A stretch of 64,000 bases of DNA from positions 839,308-903,307 of the forward strand of contig NZ_KI912149.1 of assembly GCF_000517105.1 (NCBI RefSeq), written 5' to 3'. Positions 43,627-47,902 of this stretch are shown here, piece by piece (position 1 is the stretch's first letter; each line of letters starts with the position of its first letter). The notes below the pieces were generated by a model, which worked only from the letters and a program-made list of their open reading frames with translations, was not told where the DNA came from and ran no database searches. The DNA is from Fischerella sp. PCC 9605 (lineage in GTDB: Bacteria > Cyanobacteriota > Cyanobacteriia > Cyanobacteriales > Nostocaceae). Made by a program: the position numbers and the translations under genes.

Positions 43627-44838
43627 TTAAAAATAATTCATCGGGTCTACTGGTGTACCATTTTTCCGCACTTCAAAATGGAGATGGGGGCCAGTAGATA
43701 AACCTGTGGAACCAACTGCGGCGATCGCTTGTCCGCGCTTTACCGTTTGTCCTTCAGAAACATACAATTCACTGCTATGTCCGTAGAGGGTAGTAATGCC
43801 ATCGCCGTGATCGATAATTACTGCTCTACCATAACCGCCATACCAGCCAGCAAAAATGACTGTTCCGGAGTCTGCTGCTCGAATTGTACTGCCGTAACTG
43901 GCGGCAAAATCTTGACCGGCGTGAAAACGGCGATAACCTAAAACAGGATGCATTCGCCAACCAAAGGGACTGCTGGTAGGTGCATCGGTAGGATACGCTA
44001 GCATACCTGTACCGCGAACAATTATACTGTTGCGGCTGTTTGTCTTAGCTGCTGCTTCTCTAGCCCTGGCTTCGGCAACTTTTTTTTGAATTAAAGTTGC
44101 GATTGTCTGGGAATCTTTCTCTAATTGAGTTTGTGCTGCTTCTAATGCGAGGCGATCGCTATTGAGGCGCACAATTAATTCCTGTTGAAAGTCTGTTTGC
44201 GTTTGATAATTGGCTTTTTGTGCCAGTAATTGCTGCCTAATCAAGGCTATTTCATTCTTTTGTTGTTCTACTTCTATTCTTTGTATATTGATCTGATTTG
44301 CTTGTGTTGTCAGTTTGACTAAGATTTGCTGGTCTGCCTGATAAACTAACTTCAGATAACGACGGTGGCTGATAAAGTCACTCAGATTTTGACTTTGTAG
44401 CAAAACTGCCCATCCCTGATTCACTGGAGAGCGTTGTAGAAAGCGCAGGCGGGCAATTGTTGCTGCTTGTCGTTCTTGATAAGAAACTTCTGCTGCTGCT
44501 AAATCGGCTTGTAGCTGTTGCAAGCGTTCTGTTGCTAGCTTTAGGCGTAACTCGCTGTCTTTAATTTGAGTGTCAGTGGTTTTTAAGTTTTGCTGCAAAC
44601 CGTTGAGTCGTTCTTGCGCTGCTTGTTGCAAATTGGTGAGGCGATCGCGTTCTTGTTTGACATTCTGATGCAGTTTGTCAATTTGTTGCTGCTGCTGTCG
44701 CAAACTTTTAATTGCATCGGGTGTTGCTGTCGGCGCTGCATCAGCTGGTAATGCTGGCAGAAACATCAACCATATGCACACAATCATCCAAAATGCAAGA
44801 TTTAAAATACTCTTTTTTTCTACAAATAGCGCTCTCAT
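43627..44838 (-). CDS. M23-family peptidoglycan endopeptidase/EnvC-like murein hydrolase activator
   Basis: A 403-residue exported protein. A signal or anchor segment (LNLAFWMIVCIWLMFLPALPADA) is followed by a long coiled-coil rich in Gln and Leu (about 40-255), then a C-terminal LytM/M23 domain. The zinc ligands of active M23 enzymes are present: H and D in RFHAGQDFA and the HLHFE near the end. Unlike E. coli EnvC, it may therefore be catalytic. It would act in cell-wall remodelling at division. The ATG at 44838 is used. Confidence 0.87.
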   Translation of the reverse strand: MRALFVEKKSILNLAFWMIVCIWLMFLPALPADAAPTATPDAIKSLRQQQQQIDKLHQNVKQERDRLTNLQQAAQERLNGLQQNLKTTDTQIKDSELRLKLATERLQQLQADLAAAEVSYQERQAATIARLRFLQRSPVNQGWAVLLQSQNLSDFISHRRYLKLVYQADQQILVKLTTQANQINIQRIEVEQQKNEIALIRQQLLAQKANYQTQTDFQQELIVRLNSDRLALEAAQTQLEKDSQTIATLIQKKVAEARAREAAAKTNSRNSIIVRGTGMLAYPTDAPTSSPFGWRMHPVLGYRRFHAGQDFAASYGSTIRAADSGTVIFAGWYGGYGRAVIIDHGDGITTLYGHSSELYVSEGQTVKRGQAIAAVGSTGLSTGPHLHFEVRKNGTPVDPMNYF

Positions 44839-44963
44839 GTTGTTAGGTAGAACAAGCGCGATCGCTCAAAACACCATGAGTAGTTTTCCCAAAATCCGGT
44901 TAACTTATTTCAATCTCTGGGGAATTGGGAATTTACCTTGTGCTTTGCTACAGGGCTTGACAC

Positions 44964-45185
44964 TACCCCTGTCAAGGTGTGAGTCTTAGAAATGGATTTT
45001 TCTTGGTGTCTTAGTGTCTTGGTGAGTCCAGCCCCCGTCTTGGCTTCTGCCGAGATGGGGGACTGGCGAACCCGGAGGGTGGTGAAAAAAGAATGATTGA
45101 AACACAAAGACACAAAGACACAAAGAGGAAAATAGTCTTGTTTACTAAGATAATGGTTCGTTTTTTACCCACCTTGACAGGGCTA
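44964..45185 (-). mobile_element. MITE-like element, CCCTGTCAAGG family, copy 2
   Basis: A 222-bp element in the opposite orientation to copy 1 (12247-12569). Ends as seen on the plus strand are TACCCCTGTCAAGG and CCTTGACAGGGCTA. It is flanked by the 10-bp direct repeat GGCTTGACAC (44954-44963 and 45186-45195), which differs from the flank of copy 1, so the two are independent insertions. The middle holds a different GC-rich hairpin. It ends 21 bases before the -35 box of the thrS2 promoter. Confidence 0.82.
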
Positions 45186-45206
45186 GGCTTGACACTTCGC
45201 AGAAAT

Positions 45207-45235
45207 TTGTTTAAATGAATTTAAATAGGTAATAT
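45207..45235 (+). promoter_or_regulatory. Sigma70-type promoter of the thrS2 leader
   Basis: TTGTTT (45207-45212) and TAATAT (45230-45235) with a 17-bp spacer predict a start near 45242. That is about 20 bases before the first leader peptide. The spacing is ideal for an attenuated leader. Duplicated cyanobacterial thrS genes can also be under Zur control, but no clear Zur box is seen here. Confidence 0.6.
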
Positions 45236-45262
45236 CGACTGCCAAAAAACTTTCAACTCGCA

Positions 45263-45334
45263 ATGCAAGTAAACGTTCGCCTAACAACTACCACCACTAC
45301 TACCCAAACAACCAATTGGGGGGTTGTGAGGTGA
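45263..45334 (+). CDS. Threonine-rich leader peptide 1
   Basis: A 23-codon ORF: MQVNVRL, then seven consecutive Thr (codons 8-14, 45284-45304), Gln, two more Thr, then NWGVVR and TGA. Nine of 23 residues are Thr and they use ACA, ACT and ACC. No Shine-Dalgarno is evident. The downstream GGGGGGTTG (45318-45326) can pair either with ACAACC over the last Thr codons (45308-45313 with 45322-45327) or with CAACCCTCC of terminator 1. This is the 1:2 versus 2:3 choice of a classical attenuator. Translated to the stop, the ribosome would cover segment 2 and let the terminator form. Confidence 0.75.
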   Translation: MQVNVRLTTTTTTTQTTNWGVVR

Positions 45335-45367
45335 TCGCGTTGATTTAAAATTCGACAGCACCCCATC

Positions 45368-45405
45368 AACCCTCCAGGCAATGCCCAGGAGGGTTTTGAA
45401 TTTTT
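45368..45405 (+). terminator. Attenuator terminator 1
   Basis: AACCCTCC (45368-45375) pairs with GGAGGGTT (45388-45395). An inner GGC/GCC pairs as well, and TTTTGAATTTTT follows. The 5' arm is the same segment that pairs with 45318-45326 in the antiterminator form. Confidence 0.7.
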
Positions 45406-45428
45406 ATAGAAGAACTAGGAGAAAACAG

Positions 45429-45485
45429 ATGTCTATTCGTTGGACTACCACCACTACCACCACAATCGCGCCTGGAGGGACGTGA
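45429..45485 (+). CDS. Threonine-rich leader peptide 2
   Basis: An 18-codon ORF: MSIRW, then seven consecutive Thr (codons 6-12, 45444-45464), then IAPGGT and TGA. Eight of 18 residues are Thr. It has a good Shine-Dalgarno, AGGAG, about eight bases before the ATG, just after terminator 1. The segment CCTGGAGGG (45471-45479), overlapping its last codons, is complementary to CCCTCTAGG (45520-45528), the 5' arm of terminator 2. A 1:2 pause hairpin is not obvious by eye for this copy. Confidence 0.78.
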   Translation: MSIRWTTTTTTTIAPGGT

Positions 45486-45517
45486 GGATAGATGCTGCGT
45501 GCAATCGAAACCCAACC

Positions 45518-45548
45518 ACCCCTCTAGGTCAAACCTAGAGGGGTTTTT
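45518..45548 (+). terminator. Attenuator terminator 2
   Basis: ACCCCTCTAGGT and ACCTAGAGGGGT form a perfect 12-bp stem around CAA, followed by five T. It is a very strong intrinsic terminator only 32 bases before the thrS2 ATG, so thrS2 cannot be expressed from upstream unless it is bypassed. Confidence 0.85.
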
Positions 45549-45580
45549 CATTAGCAAATTATTCACAAGGAGATACAACC

Positions 45581-46771
45581 ATGTTCGATCATCGAGAACT
45601 AGCAAAAGTGATGGATTTATTTCATTTTGAGGAGCATAGTCCGGGAATGATGTTTTGGCATCCCATCGGACTTCAGTTTTTCCGAGTTATCGAAGACTTT
45701 ATGCGACAAGTTTACCAAGCTTACGGCTTTGAGGAAGTGCGATCGCCTGTAGCATTGAATCGATCGCTTTGGGAACGTTCAGGACACTGGCAAAAGTTCC
45801 GTAAGAACATGTTTGTTGTGGGTATTCCGGATGCTGATGCAGAACCTGACTATGCGTTAAAACCAATGTCATGCCCAGCACACATTGCCATCTACAAATC
45901 TCACAAACGGAGTTATCGGGAAATACCGATGCGATTGCTGGAATTTGGCATTGTCCATCGTAACGAACCTTCCGGTACGCTATCTGGCTGTATGCGTCTG
46001 CGTCAGTTTGTGCAGGACGATGCCCATATTTTTTGCCGGGAAGCCGATATCCGAGATGAGATTAGCAATTTTCTCAGGATGGTCAAGCAGGTTTATGCAG
46101 CCTTTGGATATAATAACTTTTCAATTCGGATTGCTCTACGACCAGAGCAACGTCTTGGATCGGATGAGTTATGGGATCGGGCTGAGTCTGCCTTGATTGA
46201 GGCAGTTCAAGCACTGGATTACGCCTATGAATTAGCGCCTGGTGAAGGATCTTTCTACAGTCCCAAGATTGAAGTTAGCTTGCAAGATCACTTAGGGCGA
46301 TCGTGGCAGTGTGGCACGATTCAGGTTGATTTCAACTTTCCTCAACTTTTTGATTTATCCTTCGTCAATGAGAAAGGCGATTTAGAGCAGCTGGTGATGC
46401 TGCACCAAGCGGTTCTAGGTTCTTTGGAACGCTGGATTGGCATTTTGTTGGAAAATCACGGTGGGGTTTTACCGCTTTGGGTTGCTCCTGTGCAAATTGC
46501 CGTGGCTTCGGTTTCTAAAAAATCGGCAGATTGGGCGGAAGTGATTTTCAAAAGGCTGAAACAGATAGGGGCAAGAGTAGAATTGCATGTGAGCGATCGC
46601 ACGATTGCCAAAAAGATTCGAGAACTGTCTGTACGCAAGATACCGCTGATCGCTGTTGTGGGTGAAAAAGAAGCGATGAATCAATCTCTCAACTTGCGTC
46701 GTCTCGGAATTGCTGGACAACAGGAAATTCAGCTTCCTGAGTTAGAAACAGAATTATTAAATCTAAGATAA
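45581..46771 (+). CDS. thrS2: Threonyl-tRNA synthetase paralogue lacking the editing domain
   Basis: A 396-residue class II aminoacyl-tRNA synthetase. It starts directly at the catalytic core (FHFEEHSPGMMFWHPIG), so the N-terminal TGS and editing domains of full-length ThrRS (about 600+ residues) are absent. Motif 2 is FGIVHRNEPSGTLSGCMRLRQFVQDDAHIF. The zinc ligands Cys (KPMSCPAH), His (DDAH) and His (MLHQAVLGSLERW) are kept, as is motif 3 (GSLERWIGILLE). The anticodon-binding domain follows (LPLWVAPVQIAV...SVRKIPLIAVVG). AAGGAG precedes the ATG. Anabaena PCC 7120 has a comparable pair of ThrRS, one without editing. Expression should be governed by the tandem attenuators. Confidence 0.9.
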   Translation: MFDHRELAKVMDLFHFEEHSPGMMFWHPIGLQFFRVIEDFMRQVYQAYGFEEVRSPVALNRSLWERSGHWQKFRKNMFVVGIPDADAEPDYALKPMSCPAHIAIYKSHKRSYREIPMRLLEFGIVHRNEPSGTLSGCMRLRQFVQDDAHIFCREADIRDEISNFLRMVKQVYAAFGYNNFSIRIALRPEQRLGSDELWDRAESALIEAVQALDYAYELAPGEGSFYSPKIEVSLQDHLGRSWQCGTIQVDFNFPQLFDLSFVNEKGDLEQLVMLHQAVLGSLERWIGILLENHGGVLPLWVAPVQIAVASVSKKSADWAEVIFKRLKQIGARVELHVSDRTIAKKIRELSVRKIPLIAVVGEKEAMNQSLNLRRLGIAGQQEIQLPELETELLNLR

Positions 46772-46777
46772 AGCTTT

Positions 46778-46846
46778 CTTTGTGTCTTTGTGTCTTTGTG
46801 GTGAAAAACTAAGTTTTATTAACCACCAAGACACCAAGACACCAAG
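46778..46846. repeat. Inverted heptad repeat after thrS2
   Basis: Left arm CTTTGTGTCTTTGTGTCT... (46778-46802) is matched by ACCACCAAGACACCAAGACA... (46822-46846), about 22 of 25 positions complementary. The tgtcttt/acaccaag heptads also occur inside both CCCTGTCAAGG MITEs. It may end the thrS2 transcript, although no T-run follows the stem. Confidence 0.65.
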
Positions 46847-46877
46847 TTGAATCATGAAGCAATAGACATCTTAAGGA

Positions 46878-47108
46878 TTAATCATCAAACCGCACCCCTA
46901 GATCCACGCCCAAAACTTCTTCTATTTTGCGAAGCGTCGGTTCTGGTAAAACATCATTTTCTTCACGTTCTATTCGATACCAATTAGCACGAGTCATATT
47001 GGCGGCTTTTGCTAACTCTTCTACCGACCGTGGATCTCGCTCTCTGGCTTCTTTAATTTTTGCTCCGATGCCAGGGGCATCTATCCTTATAACCCGTTCT
47101 ATCTGCAC
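46878..47108 (-). CDS. XRE-family helix-turn-helix regulator (76 aa)
   Basis: A small DNA-binding protein. The HTH is GAKIKEARERDPRSVEELAKAANMTRANWYRIEREENDVLPEPTLRKIEEVLGVDL. It starts with GTG at 47108 and no better start is seen. It is divergent from the 71-aa gene at 47283. The intergenic region holds a perfect 10-1-10 dyad (47175-47195), the likely operator. Such small XRE proteins can be antitoxins or simple autoregulators. The opposite gene is not a recognisable toxin. Confidence 0.8.
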   Translation of the reverse strand: MQIERVIRIDAPGIGAKIKEARERDPRSVEELAKAANMTRANWYRIEREENDVLPEPTLRKIEEVLGVDLGVRFDD

Positions 47109-47174
47109 GTTTATAACATGGACAACCCTCTTTTATTCAATCATCTTGTAAATCTTATGTAAAATGTAGAGTAT

Positions 47175-47195
47175 CACTTGACAATTTGTCAAGTG
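47175..47195. promoter_or_regulatory. Perfect 10-1-10 dyad (CACTTGACAA-t-TTGTCAAGTG)
   Basis: It lies between the divergent XRE gene and the 71-aa gene. The TTGACA inside it could be a -35 box for the plus strand, with TACAGT 18 bases further. Repressor binding would then block that promoter. Most likely the XRE protein's own operator. Confidence 0.65.
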
Positions 47196-47220
47196 AGAGG
47201 ATACAGTAAAGATATAGAGA

Positions 47221-47254
47221 AAGCGCTCTGACTGGTAATCTGAAGCGCTTTTTT
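47221..47254 (+). terminator. Terminator-like hairpin in the leader of the 71-aa gene
   Basis: AAGCGCT ... AGCGCTT followed by TTTT, with a 16-base loop. It lies between the putative promoter at the dyad and the start at 47283. It could make a short RNA of about 50 nt or act as a conditional terminator. Confidence 0.5.
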
Positions 47255-47282
47255 AATCCTAAATTCAAGGAATAGAACAATT

Positions 47283-47498
47283 ATGACACAACTCATCCTT
47301 TGCCAAACACCCACAAAAGGCTGGGTGAATTTGGCTTATGTCCGTCAAATTCAGTTCCGGCGAATTCACATTCATAGATCGCTGCAAATTACTTGCCTTG
47401 TTACTTGGAGCAATGGAGATAAGGAAGCTTTTTTCGCAAAGGATGCTGAGGCTATAGCTCAAGCACTGAACAAGCAGCCATATCACTCACCCCGTTAG
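47283..47498 (+). CDS. Small hypothetical protein (71 aa)
   Basis: An ATG start with AAGGAAT upstream. The sequence TQLILCQTPTKGWVNLAYVRQIQFRRIH... LVTWSNGDKEAFFAKDAEAIAQALNK suggests a small beta-rich domain of about 60 residues. I do not recognise the family. It is divergent from the XRE gene and may be under its control. Confidence 0.6.
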   Translation: MTQLILCQTPTKGWVNLAYVRQIQFRRIHIHRSLQITCLVTWSNGDKEAFFAKDAEAIAQALNKQPYHSPR

Positions 47499-47902
47499 CA
47501 ATGATCCAAAATTTGTTCGCCAGACACCAAAGCAAAATCTTAGCTATGCCAGCATTAATTTAGATATATCAAATGGTTAAGGTTGTTTGACATTCTGCCT
47601 TTTTTTTGCAGGCTGATTTTGGAGGGATAAATGTCTAAACTACACTCACACTAGTTTACCCGATCTTTGCAAAATATCAAGTCCCCTAATCTTGCTTTTC
47701 AAGGGGGATTAGGGGGAATCGACAACAGATTACAACTAACTGGGTGCGATCGCCAGGCATTAGTTAACTACATGCCACCCTTTAACCAAAACCTCCCTTT
47801 GCCCTTTGGGTTTACAGCTCAGGTGAGGGGTGATTAAGTCTTAACGTAATTGTCTTCTCTTGTTTCAAGACAGAGAGTTACCCAACTGAAAGTGAGGTTT
47901 CT
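47499..47902. other. 404-bp intergenic region with a dispersed hairpin
   Basis: Contains an inverted repeat of the type tcccctaatcttgcttttcaagggggattaggggga (about 47682-47718), common between genes in these genomes. No gene is seen. The promoter of the 105-aa gene should lie at about 47800-47890. Confidence 0.55.

Follow-up and report, generated by a model that had tools for sequence, protein, structure and literature searches.

What governs the expression of a second, short threonyl-tRNA synthetase (ThrRS) gene in Fischerella sp. PCC 9605, and why do two short open reading frames with runs of threonine codons stand ahead of it? The trp, his, thr and ilv leaders of amino-acid operons are the classical cases of ribosome-mediated transcription attenuation, and we consider it very probable that the 5' region of this thrS gene, which lies within the 64,000-nucleotide stretch of DNA analysed here (the window), contains two complete attenuators of that kind in series, both reading Thr codons. 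The comparison of homologous sequences establishes the anatomy of the two gates, the conservation of both, their covarying terminators, a conserved antiterminator pairing and a conserved geometry. The locus thereby offers a case of a classical mechanism in cyanobacteria that is broadly conserved and directly testable.

The proposed mechanism is as follows. With plentiful Thr-tRNA, ribosomes would reach the stop codon of each leader, where a ribosome would cover a GGAGGG-type arm of the RNA, the next terminator would form and little transcript would extend into thrS. When charged tRNA-Thr drops, a ribosome would stall within the Thr run and leave the arm beyond it free to pair with the terminator's 5' arm while the 3' arm is yet to be made, such that polymerase passes. 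Since both gates would have to be passed, they should act as an AND gate in which basal leakage and response are each the product of the two; a steep response of thrS to uncharged tRNA-Thr is a deduction from this arrangement, and the backup synthetase would be expressed upon failure of the housekeeping ThrRS. We infer that the leaders are translated and that termination and read-through take place in vivo, as we do the trigger and the steeper response.

Anatomy of the two gates

Leader ORF 1 (positions 45263-45334, forward strand; MQVNVRLTTTTTTTQTTNWGVVR, then a stop) carries seven consecutive Thr codons at 45284-45304 plus two more, and leader ORF 2 (45429-45485, forward strand; MSIRWTTTTTTTIAPGGT, then a stop) carries seven at 45444-45464, both as described in an initial annotation of this DNA, which had also correctly seen the Shine-Dalgarno sequence of leader 2 (AGGAG, 45417-45421, forward strand, 7 nt 5' of the ATG). 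Each leader is followed on the same strand by an intrinsic terminator. That of gate 1 spans 45367-45405, with a stem at 45368-45395 and a T tract at 45394-45405 (minimum-energy fold and covariation), and that of gate 2 spans 45518-45548, with a 12-bp stem at 45518-45544 and a T tract running to 45548 (pattern scan and covariation). The antiterminator 5' arms lie on the forward strand within the leaders: GGGGGGTTG at 45318-45326 pairs with 45367-45375, which is the 5' arm of the gate 1 terminator, and CCTGGAGGG at 45471-45479 pairs with 45520-45528 in the gate 2 terminator. From the letters and by duplex computation, both pairings have the claimed 9 bp with one G.U.

Both terminator stems are part of the minimum-energy fold of 45242-45580, which is more stable than expected (z -3.24; 0 of 100 shuffles equally stable). 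A terminator pattern scan of the window found terminator 2, with a scan count of 2 against a shuffled mean of 1.7, and missed terminator 1, whose stem is interrupted. In-frame runs of at least seven Thr codons begin in the window only at 45284 and 45444 and occur in none of 100 first-order Markov simulations of it, and for these reasons we do not regard the tandem runs as chance. Across the 8.08-Mb genome, six consecutive ACN codons give 11 matches in seven places, two of which are these leaders, and the reversed pattern used as a control gives 68. A strict arm pattern failed even on the gates of the window, because gate 1 reads GGGGGG and terminator 2 CCCTCT; with a relaxed pattern, gate 2 was the sole match in the whole genome, and no regulon beyond thrS emerged by pattern. 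An Rfam search over 44000-47500 at E up to 1 gave no match to the T-box riboswitch family; its only two listings were other families, far below their cut-offs.

A short synthetase that lacks the editing domain

The gene behind the gates (45581-46771, forward strand) encodes a ThrRS of 396 aa that consists of a class II core and an anticodon-binding domain according to Pfam, NCBIfam and alignments. The initial annotation called it editing-deficient, and this is borne out by the absence of the editing domain: Pfam recognises only tRNA-synt_2b and HGTP_anticodon, and the product covers positions 172-558 of the 565 in TIGR00418 (NCBIfam). The other ThrRS of the genome is a full-length protein of 615 aa with the editing domain tRNA_SAD. 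Residues C98, H149 and H275 are conserved in the short ThrRS (alignment A1) at the positions that correspond to the zinc ligands of E. coli ThrRS. In a midpoint-rooted tree of 64 ThrRS with some long branches, the 32 short enzymes from cyanobacteria fall into a single clade (100/99) and, together with 11 gammaproteobacterial short enzymes from Marinomonas, Xenorhabdus, Aliikangiella and Exilibacterium, into a clade of 43 (100/100) that stands apart from the 21 others. Short copies are scattered: a family search yielded 18 with at least 72% identity in 192 family genomes, the window's own genome included, and a search of the phylum under a strict E-value limit detected the short thrS in 2 of 386 genomes. 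On this sequence evidence we take the short thrS to be a patchily distributed auxiliary ThrRS. Fifty-seven ThrRS relatives on IMG/VR contigs (L159-L215), some of which are several hundred kilobases long, are distant, at 53% identity or less.

The name thrS2 given earlier to the gene should not suggest the thrS2 gene of Anabaena, whose product T2 is a different, full-length and Zur-regulated protein. In the cited parts of PMC4787780, an insertion has damaged the editing domain of T2 from Anabaena sp. PCC 7120, whose gene is repressed by Zur and lies in an operon; the two proteins are alike as second cyanobacterial ThrRSs with poor editing, whereas the window enzyme is without the editing domain and no Zur box was found at its gene, which rules out their identity.

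What the gates might report

All readings of the trigger share one sensor, uncharged tRNA-Thr. One of them, which we hold as possible though tentative, is zinc limitation: the cell would make the backup ThrRS once its housekeeping ThrRS, which depends on zinc, has lost the metal, with uncharged tRNA-Thr as the signal. The gene neighbourhoods on two conjugative plasmids, pREC1 (L157, wider L216) and pREC2 (L158, wider L217), fit this, the pREC1 copy lying near COG0523/ZigA, folE, cysS, metH, dihydroorotase and metallothionein genes and the pREC2 copy near a zinc ABC transporter, a Fur-family regulator, cysS and dnaG, although both plasmids come from one strain of Acaryochloris. Proteobacterial ThrRS paralogues with conserved zinc ligands stand in predicted Zur regulons in the passages cited from PMC2770081, and the portion of PMC4787780 cited here has Anabaena T2 induced upon zinc loss. 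The window, L033, L034 and pREC1 also have M23 metallopeptidase genes next to thrS, which is an ambiguous sign. Against zinc, the short enzyme itself keeps the zinc ligands; no Zur-like match of at least 13/15 to a consensus precedes thrS at 32 loci other than the plasmids; none of 30 neighbouring proteins at 23 of the 28 named loci belongs to zinc transport, to COG0523, to Zur or to zinc sparing; and the window's genome has no COG0523 match closer than about 205 kb. On pREC1 the cysS gene has a Zur-like box, TGAGAATGATTATCA, upstream of it.

Another reading, which we think rather doubtful, takes a ThrRS inhibitor as the trigger and sees the short enzyme as an inducible resistance paralogue, comparable to ObaO in the case of obafluorin. 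It draws on Ser227 of the window enzyme, which aligns to Gly463 in E. coli ThrRS chains: serine stands at this position in 13 of the 32 cyanobacterial short ThrRSs, the window's among them, and in 0 of 32 other ThrRSs compared. According to the cited sections of PMC11252418, either of the changes G463S and G463A confers resistance to obafluorin and to borrelidin on E. coli ThrRS, and ObaO likewise has Ser at the Gly463 position; unlike the window enzyme, ObaO appears there as a full-length protein (residue numbers to 637) in the producer. Against a resistance function, the other 19 of the 32 enzymes and both Acaryochloris copies have Gly at this position, and no biosynthetic cluster was recognised among the 30 neighbouring proteins, that is, the immediate neighbours. 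The top PDB match, 8wia, has Ser at the Gly463 position in its printed sequence; we set it aside as evidence because its score is within 2 bits of wild-type-like chains.

Conservation of both gates

A family search and a scan of named genomes, the latter represented by the best 80 of at least 558 stretches (28 of these 80 being cyanobacterial short thrS), gave 33 cyanobacterial short-thrS loci: the window, L006, L009, L010, L021 and L033-L060. L044, whose sequence ends 67 nt upstream of the gene, was excluded, which leaves 32 evaluable loci. Gate 1, defined by at least five Thr among the last 22 codons, a GGAGGG-type arm and a CCCTC-type terminator, is found at 32/32, at some of them with a Thr run interrupted by other codons. 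Gate 2 is found at 30/32, including L047, where Thr codons are few, and L006, where it is split by an insertion; both of these were omitted from the gate 2 alignment and folding test. The hosts include Hapalosiphonaceae, Chlorogloeopsidaceae, Nostocaceae, Scytonemataceae and Calotrichaceae as well as Coleofasciculaceae, Leptolyngbyaceae, Nodosilineaceae, Chroococcidiopsidaceae and Xenococcaceae. Leaders, arms and terminators thus recur at nearly every homologue examined, the very outcome on which the initial annotation had made its reading depend.

The insertion in L006 is about 170 bp long; its ends are inverted (GGGAGCATCCCA ... TGGGATGCACCC) and 9 bp, GATAGTTGC, are duplicated. It lies (reverse complement) at about -265 to -85 before thrS between leader 2 and terminator 2, parts the arm from the terminator and so constitutes a natural interruption of gate 2.

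Substitutions in the leaders were counted by codon position after setting aside the leaders with register shifts (L054 for gate 1; L010, L051, L053 and L057 for gate 2). Differences per sequence pair at codon positions 1/2/3 were 2.42/2.29/5.38 in 25 leaders 2, a pattern of substitution that demonstrates reading-frame selection on leader 2 with a clear third-position bias, and 3.64/5.80/6.09 in 31 leaders 1, where the bias is weak. Across 61 leaders, Gly-Gly pairs are written GGA GGG in 53 of 54 cases and Thr codons vary among ACC, ACT, ACA and ACG; the fixation of the former while the latter drift argues for a constraint on the RNA beyond the amino acids.

A predicted sigma-70 promoter precedes the leaders in the window at 45189-45216 (forward strand), with TTGACA at 45189-45194, a spacer of 16 and TTAAAT at 45211-45216, or alternatively TAAATG at 45212-45217 as the -10 hexamer. 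Transcription is therefore likely to start near 45223-45226, about 40 nt 5' of leader 1, rather than near 45242 as had been proposed. At 30 of the 32 loci an exact TTGACA, followed after 16-18 nt by a -10-like hexamer, lies 116-175 nt before the leader-1 stop, a count for which the best match was taken without a shuffled control; the exceptions are L006, where no promoter was found, and L034, where it is poor. A general promoter scan omits the window promoter, its rule demanding A at position 2 of the -10 hexamer, and the two Acaryochloris plasmids have no TTGACA within 500 nt upstream. Just 5' of the predicted promoter, between 45000 and 45130 of the window, the near-complementary repeats cttggtgtcttagtgtcttggtg and caaagacacaaagacacaaagag flank a spacer.

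Pairing of terminators and antiterminators

The idea that the paired arms co-vary held for the terminators by some measures and failed for the antiterminators, whose arms are nearly invariant. Double-changed cells number 30 in the gate 1 terminator against 14.2 in shuffled alignments (32 sequences) and 19 in the gate 2 terminator against 6.9, and in both gates neither this number nor the covariation score was matched by any of 500 shuffles; the numbers of double-changed pairs and of further pair types were not above shuffles. The antiterminator helices have standard pairs in 88.5% of cells in gate 1 (32 sequences) and 89.7% in gate 2 (27 distinct sequences), and versions of these helices slid along the alignment only in 41-63%. 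A shuffle test gave covariation support to the antiterminator helix in neither gate, and covariation leaves it unproven because the arms hardly vary. A C-G pair of terminator 2 has become U-A in six sequences while the antiterminator retains a G.U at that place, as expected when one strand has two partners. The arms of both gates bind far better on average than shuffled arms, and RNAalifold, applied to 23 gates aligned jointly, gives the antiterminator helix as their consensus. In gate 1, matched arms also form better pairings than mismatched arms do (permutation 0.001, with relatedness not removed); in gate 2 the difference is not significant (permutation 0.14).

These comparisons bear on whether both gates count. 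It is improbable, in our judgement, that only gate 2, with its Shine-Dalgarno sequence and its place beside thrS, is functional and that gate 1 is a decaying duplicate which adds merely a terminator. Leader 1 of the window has, on inspection, no clear Shine-Dalgarno sequence, its substitutions across loci fall on codon position 2 nearly as often as on position 3, the arm of leader 1 in L054 lies just past a premature stop, and a strict scan, which demands a continuous stem and a T-rich tail, detects a terminator after 12/32 leaders 1 compared with 23/29 leaders 2, the remaining terminators having interrupted stems and being located via the arms. Yet it is gate 1 that is present more consistently (32/32 loci against 30/32 for gate 2), L048 and L059 have lost gate 2 and retain gate 1, and it is the gate 1 arms that pair better when matched. 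Two working gates remain the reading that we prefer.

Folding with a ribosome in place

In folding with a ribosome-sized mask (gate 1, n=32; gate 2, n=28), a ribosome placed at the first Thr codon gave a nascent antiterminator above 0.5 in 29/32 of gates 1 and 27/28 of gates 2, and at the middle Thr codon in 31/32 and 28/28. With the ribosome at the stop codon the antiterminator exceeded 0.5 in 0/60 and the terminator in 60/60. The former number follows from the mask covering the arm, and the informative part of this model result is the conserved distance that places the arm there. Duplexes, alignments and mask folding agree with the earlier claim that terminator and antiterminator are mutually exclusive, and they place the 5' arm under a stop-codon ribosome. 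When the full transcript is folded at equilibrium with a stalled ribosome, the terminator often wins (means 0.60-0.67), and antitermination would therefore have to be kinetic.

The pause hairpin proposed for leader 1 (45308-45313 with 45322-45327) can pair but is weak, and the antiterminator of gate 1 in the window still forms in a ribosome-free fold (0.97); for gate 2 of the window, the simulated ribosome-free state gives 1.00. Across loci the thermodynamic model predicts antitermination without a ribosome for 19/32 of gates 1 and 27/28 of gates 2. Since the antiterminator is favoured without a ribosome, the default-off pause hairpin of the trp model is not evident here.

Relation to known attenuators

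In the structural features tested on these sequences, the gates resemble classical attenuators. With the trp, his, thr and ilv leaders they share a run of cognate codons, an arm that would lie under the terminating ribosome and a downstream intrinsic terminator; unlike them, the window has two gates for the same amino acid in series, ahead of a synthetase paralogue and in a cyanobacterium, and a convincing default pause hairpin is missing. Vecchione and Sello reportedly described, in 2010, an auxiliary tryptophanyl-tRNA synthetase under ribosome-mediated attenuation, which resembles the window gene in being an auxiliary synthetase and has a single leader where the window has two. The thrL-thrS attenuator of Streptomyces lividans, as given in the cited portion of PMC8079986, also sets a Thr leader ahead of thrS, with two Thr codons in thrL and an unclear mode of termination; in contrast to the window it is a single leader.

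Tandem attenuators have a precedent in Salmonella mgtCBR, where, according to the cited part of PMC3641672, two short ORFs in one leader each control transcription of the same operon and act additively, but that precedent concerns two different signals, ATP and proline, whereas both leaders of the window carry Thr runs and each has its own terminator. A 2016 paper speaks, in the passage cited (PMC4833913), of no reliable data on attenuation in cyanobacteria. In the open-licence literature, which leaves most subscription papers aside, we found no report of leader-peptide attenuation of a cyanobacterial synthetase, nor, within the same bounds, of two attenuators for one amino acid placed in series. 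Attenuation of a synthetase gene and tandem attenuation are each known already; what is new is the combination, with both gates reading the same amino acid, in cyanobacteria and ahead of a mobile backup ThrRS. It raises three testable questions. Is the coupling of transcription and translation in cyanobacteria tight enough for ribosomes to control termination? What does doubling the attenuator bring in leakage and steepness? And what is the reason for such control over a synthetase that has no editing domain and may mischarge Ser? The gates are also a possible genetic sensor of ThrRS failure.

Gates beyond the aligned loci

A covariance model built from the gates was used for out-of-sample searches. 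Both gates were found 5' of the short thrS on the two conjugative plasmids of Acaryochloris marina MBIC10699 (E 5e-16 to 3e-19), copies that took no part in building the model. Thirty-nine of 184 family genomes matched at E 0.01, in a survey limited to 20 candidates per genome under stricter filters, where absence is not proof. Twenty-four matched strongly (best E 5e-11 or better), and two adjacent gates are present in 21 of these. Eighteen of the 24 have a near-full-length short thrS (in G119 the gates are on a separate contig from the gene), five have broken, split or partial copies, and one has an orphan gate 1. Since all 24 were traced to thrS or to such remnants and the orphan, no other gene was seen under the gates.

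The damaged copies comprise a short thrS with three internal stops (G059, L021), two deleted copies (G004, L133; G008, L149), one in two pieces (G022) and a partial one near a contig end (G030); the orphan gate 1 without a gene is in G126 (L150). Together, broken copies and orphan gate point to repeated loss of an accessory gene. At L021, L133 and L149 one or both gates remain beside the broken or deleted gene.

The 15 genomes with only weak matches have best E values of 3e-5 to 0.01; six of them, viewed by eye at one locus each (L151-L156), have ACC/ACT low-complexity repeats without gate anatomy and were rejected. Such repeats elsewhere are what could be said for the notion that Thr runs and hairpins ahead of thrS are low-complexity sequence there by chance, to which we give practically no credence. 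Conservation at 32 loci and on two more plasmids refutes it; the synonymous drift, the invariance of the arms, the covariation in the terminators and the inheritance of gates and gene together speak against it as well.

In gammaproteobacteria, a single homologous gate precedes the short thrS at 10 of 11 loci (E 0.0076 or better); the eleventh, L061, reaches only E 0.18 and its terminator stem is missing. We consider it quite possible, if somewhat short of probable, that the promoter, the two Thr gates and the short enzyme together make up a self-contained mobile cassette for sensing failure of the host ThrRS, its attenuator having moved between phyla and its gate having been doubled in cyanobacteria. 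Such a cassette would respond through uncharged tRNA-Thr to any cause, be it metal loss, an inhibitor or threonine shortage, and two attenuators for an identical signal would silence an error-prone synthetase without editing until it is needed. Gene and attenuator would have crossed phyla together, with the doubling falling in the cyanobacterial lineage.

By eye, seven of the 11 gammaproteobacterial loci (L062, L065, L066, L067, L080, L082 and L099) have TTCGCTCAGAG just 3' of the terminator. It is complementary to CTCTGAGCGA(A) in the terminator 5' arm and might form a further alternative helix near the thrS start.

Full-length genes were also inspected. None of 10 cyanobacterial full-length thrS loci has an ORF with four consecutive Thr codons, L031 among them being without upstream DNA. 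Among 52 proteobacterial loci (L061-L112), 11 alphaproteobacterial full-length thrS genes (L085, L093, L095, L096, L098, L104, L107-L109, L111 and L112) have a Thr-run ORF about 690-730 nt before the match, for example MKKYFIFFVTTTTTTPAGV followed by a stop, a leader that could possibly be a single attenuator of the housekeeping enzyme.
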